DNA of 64,000 nt, taken from assembly GCA_030432235.1 (NCBI GenBank), contig JAUIHT010000004.1, positions 1 to 64,000 of the forward strand, written 5' to 3'. The translations under genes were made by a program, and so were the position numbers. The DNA is from Verrucomicrobiia bacterium (lineage in GTDB: Bacteria > Verrucomicrobiota > Verrucomicrobiia > Opitutales > Cerasicoccaceae). Below the pieces are notes generated by a model that made no database searches, was not told the DNA's origin, and saw nothing but the letters and a program-made list of their open reading frames with translations. The stretch's first letter is position 1; each line of letters starts with the position of its first letter. Positions 51,240 through 51,895 of the stretch are shown in pieces.

Positions 51240-51335
51240 AATCGGGGTGTCCCGCGCGTGGGACTGAGATGACGGGGCGCTCGCCCGCCGGACCCTTGGA
51301 ACCTGATGCGGGTCATGCCGCCGAAGGGAACGATT
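51240..51335 (+). promoter_or_regulatory. TPP (THI element) riboswitch
   Basis: Conserved THI blocks are in order: GGGGTGTCC at 51244, CTGAGAT at 51264-51270, ACCCTTGGAACCTGAT near 51292, GGGTCATGCCGCCGAAGGGA to 51329. P1 is formed by AATCG (51240-51244) and CGATT (51331-51335). The ATG of the next gene is at 51338, only two bases after P1, and the conserved AAGGGA block (51324-51329) sits at Shine-Dalgarno distance. TPP binding would therefore hide the ribosome binding site directly. It controls the unit with the ORF6N gene and thiC. Confidence 0.95.
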
Positions 51336-51337
51336 CA

Positions 51338-51895
51338 ATGAGCAAATCCATCGCCGAATTTATCCCGGAAATACGCATCTTCGAGGTGCGGTGCAAATCG
51401 GTTATCATCGATTCCGACCTGGCGGAAATCTACGGGGTGGAAACCAAAGTCTTCAATCAAGCCGTTAAGCGTAACCTCGAACGTTTCCCTGACGAGTTTT
51501 CCTTTATCCTTACAGAAGAAGAGATTACGAACTTGAGATCGCAAAATGCGACATCAAACACCCGTTTGAGGTCACAAATTGTGACCTCAAACAAGGGACG
51601 TGGCGGAAGACGCTACAATCCCCGCGTTTTCACCGAGCATGGGGCTCTGATGGCTTCAACCATCCTGAAAAGCGAACGCGCCGTGGCCATGAGCATTTAC
51701 GTGATCCGGGCCTTTGTCGAGATGCGCGAGCACCTCATGACCAATGCCGCTATTTTCAAACGCTTGGCCGAGGTGGACAAGAAGCTCCTCGAACAAGACA
51801 ATGCCCTGTGGGACATCTACCAGAAGCTGCTCCCACTCCTACAACCCGACGAACCAGAAGCCGGCAACAAGCGCATGGGCTTCGTAACCGACTAA
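51338..51895 (+). CDS. ORF6N (KilA-N related) domain protein between riboswitch and thiC
   Basis: The 185-residue product has the ORF6N domain at about residues 5-115: [38 protein letters not shown], then [19 protein letters not shown], quoted in short pieces of the known pattern. ORF6N is a DNA-binding domain common in phage and some chromosomal genes. Helical C-terminal residues follow ([21 protein letters not shown]). A doubled segment, LRSQNATSN and LRSQIVTSN, is encoded by palindromic DNA. It starts inside the riboswitch expression platform and ends 7 bp before thiC, so it should respond to TPP. The role in thiamine control, if any, is unknown; it may be an inserted gene. Confidence 0.88.
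51565..51591. repeat. Perfect palindrome inside the ORF6N gene
   Basis: TTTGAGGTCACAA and its exact complement TTGTGACCTCAAA flank a single A. An imperfect palindrome of the same type (TTGAGATCGCA / TGCGACATCAA) lies just upstream at 51533-51557, so two palindromic units stand in tandem and encode the duplicated LRSQxxTSN. Confidence 0.85.

Follow-up and report, generated by a model that had tools for sequence, protein, structure and literature searches.

A TPP riboswitch followed by an exchangeable reading frame, here a phage-type ORF6N gene, upstream of thiC in a Verrucomicrobiia genome

In a 64,000-nucleotide stretch of DNA from a Verrucomicrobiia bacterium (contig JAUIHT010000004.1, positions 1 to 64,000; hereafter the window), a TPP riboswitch is followed directly by an ORF6N gene, and this gene in turn by thiC. 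On balance we lean towards a riboswitch that acts as a translational OFF switch, whose direct target would be the reading frame that starts just past the aptamer, and to which thiC would be coupled. According to this model, when TPP is bound the P4 and P1 helices would fold over the bases just before the leader ATG, so that the ribosome would be kept off. Without TPP, the ribosome would start at the leader ATG, read the leader ORF, stop beside the thiC ATG and restart there, and thiC would be expressed. The leader slot would be filled by different ORFs in the family, here by the ORF6N gene, whose product would be made when thiamine is low and would serve mainly as a passenger and relay. We infer the binding of TPP, the occlusion of the start, the coupling of thiC and the dispensability of the ORF6N product from the sequences described below. 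The control of ORF6N by TPP is probably real but accidental. Of more interest is the leader frame that separates the riboswitch from thiC and is exchangeable, an arrangement of the riboswitch-uORF relay type.

Results

A TPP riboswitch abuts the ORF6N gene, which abuts thiC

The only Rfam match at the gathering threshold in the window was the TPP riboswitch RF00059 (THI element), located at 51233-51346 on the plus strand. The aptamer scored 64.6 bits (gathering score 54.3; E = 2.1e-10) over the full length of the model (1-105), and a search of the genome returned this aptamer as its single RF00059 match. It adjoins a thiamine gene, since thiC lies on the same strand beyond the ORF6N gene, and judging from this match the aptamer would bind TPP. 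The original prediction had placed an AAGGGA block of the riboswitch (51324-51329) 8 bases before the ORF6N ATG at 51338, and this was confirmed in the sequence. In the Infernal alignment the block forms the 3′ strand of P4, where A51325, G51326 and G51327 are paired with the CCT of the 5′ strand (51302-51304), and the Rfam consensus of RF00059 contains AGGGA; the block belongs to the aptamer itself. It had also been proposed that P1 closes 2 bases before this ATG, and indeed GATT (51332-51335), whose last base lies 2 bases before the start codon, can pair with AATC (51240-51243). This pairing is our own reading of the sequence; the P1 of the Infernal alignment pairs other bases, and two of its five pairs are non-standard.

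A terminator-like hairpin with a T tail was detected by a consensus scan at 51198-51218 (plus strand), 14 bases before the aptamer match. It probably ends the upstream unit, and at this position hardly any space is left for the thi unit to have a promoter of its own. The scan covered both strands of 50900-54100 and gave 5 terminator-like sites, compared with 3.8 expected. None of them was on the plus strand between the aptamer (51233) and thiC (51903), and an intrinsic terminator was therefore discarded as the expression platform in the window.

The ORF6N gene (51338-51895, plus strand) is intact, with its ATG at 51338-51340 and its stop at 51893-51895, and encodes 185 aa. Its product matched PF10543 over the whole domain (profile positions 2-86 of 86; E = 9.9e-30; 103.1 bits against a cut-off of 27.8), and the PHROG families that it matched are annotated as anti-repressor (best E = 1.6e-17). 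Going by these labels, the product would be of the phage-antirepressor kind. No match was obtained in the PDB at E ≤ 0.001 by fold or at E ≤ 1 by sequence profile. An in-frame ATG further upstream, at 51269, would give a protein of 208 aa, and it was set aside as the start because the frame would then run through the folded aptamer. The thiC gene (51903-53813, plus strand), which encodes a phosphomethylpyrimidine synthase of 636 aa (PF01964, E = 1.7e-187; PF13667, E = 2.2e-30), is the sole thiC match in the genome, and its ATG at 51903 lies 7 bases past the ORF6N stop, just as had been predicted. The GC content was 0.516 in the ORF6N gene, versus 0.630 in thiC and 0.586 in the window.

Past thiC, two small adjacent genes (53884-54336) resemble, by eye, a toxin-antitoxin pair; the Pfam and NCBIfam scans gave no match for either of them.

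The leader frame is kept in the family while its content changes

The thiC leaders were compared in 10 genomes, G000 (the window's own) to G009, which represent 6 or 7 lineages of one family. The riboswitch was found upstream of thiC in all of them, with scores below the gathering cut-off in G004 (48.6 bits), G006 (54.1 bits) and G008 (52.3 bits). In 9 of the 10 genomes, including the window's, the layout was that of a relay, i.e., an ORF that starts near the riboswitch and stops near the thiC start: an ATG located 0-8 nt past the 3′ block of the aptamer opens a frame of 30-212 codons, the stop of which lies between -41 and +4 nt from the thiC ATG. That thiC may be coupled to the ORF6N gene, as suggested beforehand, is favored by the presence of this same layout with other ORFs in the relatives. 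Apart from ORF6N with its 185 aa, the frames have 37 codons in G001, 40 codons in G002 (where the ATG directly touches the block), 33 codons in G003, 30 codons each in G005, G007 and G009 (nearly identical to one another), 212 codons in G006 and 155 codons in G008. Those of G002, G003 and G008 end at +4, which amounts to an ATGA overlap with thiC. The exception is G004, in which no ATG, GTG or TTG is present within 25 nt of the block and the frames do not end at thiC; its leader (locus L121, 396-1000) carries a small open frame and then a GxxExxY gene (TIGR04256, E = 1.7e-41; ATGA overlap).

The original prediction had pointed to the thiC leaders of relatives as the place to look for the ORF6N gene. 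The ORF6N protein of the window gave no match in any of the 9 other family genomes, and in most of them the slot holds another frame; within a set of 54 genomes of relatives the protein was matched in 6, the window's own genome included. The long occupants differ, being ORF6N in the window, frames without a family match in G006 and G008, and the small open frame plus the GxxExxY gene in G004. The short leader peptides appear unrelated by eye, and at the DNA level the leaders of G003 and of G005, G007 and G009 have the stretch TGCGACAAT in common. With a frame that is conserved in its place but not in its content, what matters would seem to be that it is translated, not what it encodes.

When the leaders were shuffled with their dinucleotide composition preserved, the layout arose in 4.3-8.3% of the shuffles for each short leader, and in 0/1000 for each of the three long leaders. 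Among leaders from other families the layout was present in only 1 of 22, namely in 1/15 of a first set (G028) and in 0/7 of a second one, none of whose leaders has an ATG at 12 nt or less from the block. In the other 21 such a frame is missing, and the thiC start lies 48-108 nt downstream. The first set consists of the TPP loci with a thiC match (14 + 2 loci without such a match were left out), and the second consists of the 7 regions kept out of 20, the 13 dropped having no thiC match in ~1 kb. The difference between 9/10 and 1/22 corresponds to a Fisher p of 3.4e-6, that between 6/7 (near-identical lineages merged) and 1/22 to 9.9e-5, and that with 5/6 (G003 merged with G005, G007 and G009 as well) to 3.5e-4, and these values are to be taken as rough guides, because the layout criterion was chosen with the data already known and the compared sequences are related.

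Start signals and folding of the leader

The AAGGGA block had been interpreted as the ribosome site of the ORF6N gene. Shine-Dalgarno usage was therefore counted before the 292 genes called in 464 kb of the window's contig. The motifs AGGA, GGAG or GAGG were present at -18 to -4 in 28 of the 292 genes, the counts in two control windows being 18 and 30; AGGAG by itself was present before 8 (3 and 0 in the controls, a slight excess) and AGGGA before 1 (0 and 4 in the controls), with gene starts taken as the first ATG, which blurs a Shine-Dalgarno signal and would hardly erase a strong one. The genes of this genome carry hardly any Shine-Dalgarno signal. Hence, the interpretation of AAGGGA as a ribosome site is weak, and thiC could start on its own. 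By eye, no Shine-Dalgarno motif was found upstream of the thiC genes of the family, which is usual for the genes of the window's genome. A search for 16S rRNA in the assembly itself found none, and the 16S rRNA of a genome of the same family (G005) retains the anti-Shine-Dalgarno sequence CCTCC. An 'SD-scarce' group with a conserved CCUCC, which includes some Verrucomicrobia, is described in the part of a published survey that was available to us (PMC10783764). As far as that part goes, the scarce signal of this genome and the CCTCC of G005 fit this group (PMC10783764). The folded aptamer could nevertheless block the start region of ORF6N through nearness alone.

In folding models, which include neither the ligand nor tertiary contacts, the mean unpaired probability of AAGGGA was 0.28 in the free RNA, 0.44 with the aptamer core enforced and 0.50 with the core and P1 enforced, and that of the ORF6N AUG was 0.45, 0.59 and 0.47, respectively. 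The best free fold (-46.3 kcal/mol) was not the aptamer fold (-33.4 and -32.1 kcal/mol), and 198 of 200 shuffles folded at least as well as the leader region (z = 2.12). A fold-based proof of occlusion was not obtained, because enforcing the aptamer left AAGGGA less paired than it was in the free RNA, and these models argue rather against occlusion. As to the proposal that TPP hides the ORF6N start, the adjacency of the aptamer and the start makes TPP control of ORF6N translation likely, and folding does not demonstrate occlusion.

ORF6N genes at other loci

For comparison, 86 other ORF6N loci were assembled, consisting of the best 80 of 551 relatives from several phyla, 5 loci from the search of relatives, and the second copy of the window's genome. 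Neither a thiC match nor a TPP-like motif was found in the flanks of these 86 loci (including the best 80 of 551), and no Rfam match over the gathering score was obtained at the 17 loci scanned (L139, L034-L038 and 11 more). ORF6N as a general partner of thiC was discarded, as it was not seen as such in the 9 family genomes or at the 86 loci. The notion that the ORF6N protein is a meaningful thiamine-controlled regulator was not borne out either: the lack of a match to it in the 9 other family genomes, together with the lack of thiC or a TPP motif in the flanks of the 86 loci, makes a dedicated link between thiamine and ORF6N unlikely. These results correspond to one half of what had been named beforehand as refuting the original prediction, namely that ORF6N is missing from the relatives.

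The neighbors were inspected at 10 loci, chosen by eye from 17 displayed loci and not at random, and their families were scanned in three. At L037, the ORF6N gene lies between a purF-like gene (TIGR01134, E = 1.3e-25) and a purM-like gene (TIGR00878, E = 3.8e-52), each of which falls short of its curated cut-off; at L035, its neighbors are csb2 and cas3, which belong to a type I-G CRISPR system and each overlap it by 4 bases; and at L052, it lies between DUF1553 and DUF1501. By eye, the neighbors at L057 and L075 are like those of L037, and the upstream tail at L040, L059 and L090 is as in L052. At some further loci, among them L046 and L063, there are wider gaps, or the script may have called neighboring frames that are not genuine. 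The ORF6N gene, then, also sits as a single guest inside other operons.

The second ORF6N gene of the window's genome (contig C8; L139, 4411-5037, minus strand) is located before a run of queC-like, queD-like and queE-like genes on the same strand, as judged by eye; no Rfam match was obtained at this locus.

A palindrome within ORF6N genes

Two 25-bp palindromes are present on the plus strand within the ORF6N gene of the window, one at 51533-51557, which codes for residues 66-74, and the other at 51566-51590, which codes for residues 77-85; they are the only exact matches to the pattern in this genome. A search with an LRSQxxTS-like peptide located 75 sites in 64 of 87 ORF6N genes (including the best 80 of 551 relatives), and the DNA of these sites was palindromic in a mean of 11.0 of 12 pairs (range 8-12), versus 4.3 when synonymous codons were redrawn. 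Among the 47 distinct sites, pair 5 varies in step as G-C, A-T and T-A, and pairs 3, 6 and 9 as G-C and A-T, whereas other pairs hardly vary and the bases at the innermost position match in only 22 of the 47, the variation that is visible being limited by the peptide motif used to find the sites. The ORF6N model has a mean pLDDT of 84.6. The mean is 54 for residues 71-80 and 50 for residues 81-90, and it is 85 for residues 61-70, where the first palindrome begins at the end of a helix.

In the phylum, the palindrome pattern was found in 39 of 288 genomes and a reversed control pattern in 0; among the 30 loci listed, 27 of 31 sites were in an ORF6N-profile frame (25 of 31 when recounted more strictly). 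The pattern was present in 10 of 177 genomes of the order, and of 13 sites outside the window's genome, 8 were in ORF6N (tblastn), 2 were, by eye, in an ORF6N-like frame that is broken, and 3 were elsewhere. With at most 3 exact copies per genome, a high-copy repeat was discarded. The pattern was also present in 103 stretches of viral contigs. At 80 viral loci, 9 of 83 sites (8 of 83 by a stricter recount) were in an ORF6N frame, as defined by a profile built from the window's own clade that may miss distant ORF6N genes, and the remaining sites were in diverse frames or without a long frame. A palindrome strictly bound to ORF6N was rejected on these counts.

The palindrome may be a candidate binding site of the dimer type, a hairpin formed in RNA or DNA, or a small mobile element that keeps the reading frame, all of which would fit. 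A wider proposal, which we offer as a speculation and regard as rather improbable, is that ORF6N genes of this type might be mobile and enter operons as guests, between genes of the same direction and with translational coupling on both sides, with the palindrome as the site for an ORF6N dimer or for a gene-moving factor. The palindromes of phages would then mark the same machinery, and the guest in the window would have taken over the riboswitch leader and would run on thiamine starvation.

Discussion

The arrangement in the window could be explained differently if the riboswitch acted on the transcription or the RNA stability of the whole leader, through Rho or an RNase, so that thiC would start independently and the leader frames would be tolerated inserts without a relay role. 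We hold this for doubtful, if quite possible. The near-absence of a Shine-Dalgarno signal speaks in its favor, as thiC could start without coupling, and so do the 21 of 22 outgroup leaders that do without a frame and the hairpins followed by T runs that are visible by eye in the leaders of the f2 family (L026 and L127). It leaves unexplained, however, why in 9 of 10 family genomes a frame opens within 8 nt of the aptamer and closes near thiC, and no plus-strand terminator-like site was found between 51233 and 51903 by a scan for the intrinsic type. A related view takes the short leader frames as products of chance, with the riboswitch acting on thiC by means of an alternative RNA structure, a platform that ORF6N would have disrupted or displaced. 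Each short frame alone would indeed be 4-8% likely, and the leaders of G005, G007 and G009 contain, by eye, the complementary sequences GCGACAA and TTGTCG; it is the joint occurrence of three or four short leader types and three long frames, against 1 of 22 in the outgroups, that makes this view unlikely.

It might also be argued that the ORF6N protein is a genuine thiamine-regulated DNA-binding regulator that was recruited into the thi operon, given that its gene is intact and starts against the aptamer, and that the related phage families are annotated as anti-repressors. Such a recruitment seems very unlikely to us, since none of the 9 other family genomes has an ORF6N match, the occupants of the slot differ among the relatives, the 86 other ORF6N loci (including the best 80 of 551) show neither thiC nor a TPP-like motif, and the 17 loci that were scanned show no Rfam match over the gathering score.

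If the translational switch with a coupled thiC is right, metabolite switches that act via an exchangeable upstream ORF instead of a biosynthetic gene would be known from two classes of riboswitch, in lineages that are unrelated to each other. It would also follow that a riboswitch can capture a guest gene while the control of the host gene survives, and that finding gene X under riboswitch Y does not by itself assign X a role in the pathway. The palindrome of ORF6N, with its covarying arms, is in its own right an unexplained feature of the DNA of a gene family that is widespread, and one that lends itself to testing. A literature search of partial coverage gave, among the matches listed, none on a TPP-controlled leader ORF before thiC and none on the ORF6N palindrome.

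Palindromic elements that sit in coding genes are known from Rickettsia. The ORF6N palindrome is like them in that palindromic DNA is found in frame within a protein gene, in a largely poorly ordered stretch. It differs from them in that it measures 25 bp, occupies one place in one gene family and has arms that covary across phyla, and in that the pattern occurs in diverse phage frames too.

As for the riboswitch, there are translational TPP riboswitches in which the element overlaps the ribosome site of the first gene, and the window resembles them, as the conserved 3′ block of the aptamer lies just before a start codon; unlike in those systems, the first gene is here not a thiamine gene and the genome has hardly any Shine-Dalgarno signal. 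The closest parallel is offered by the B12 riboswitch of M. tuberculosis, which, according to the portion of the report accessible to us, controls a uORF on which the translation of ppe2 depends, mainly by termination-reinitiation, and the authors of that report raise the speculation that ppe2 itself entered, as an invader, a cobalamin locus under riboswitch control (PMC11260477). To the extent that this portion describes the ppe2 relay, both systems have a riboswitch beside the start region of an upstream ORF, and a downstream gene that lacks an obvious Shine-Dalgarno site and starts at the stop of that ORF, with an AUGA overlap in the case of ppe2 (PMC11260477). The relay was demonstrated with reporters for ppe2, whereas the one considered here is deduced from the layout; moreover, by comparison with the same portion of the report, the ligand would be TPP instead of B12, the content of the leader frame varies among related genomes, and its occupant in the window is a phage-type ORF6N gene (PMC11260477).
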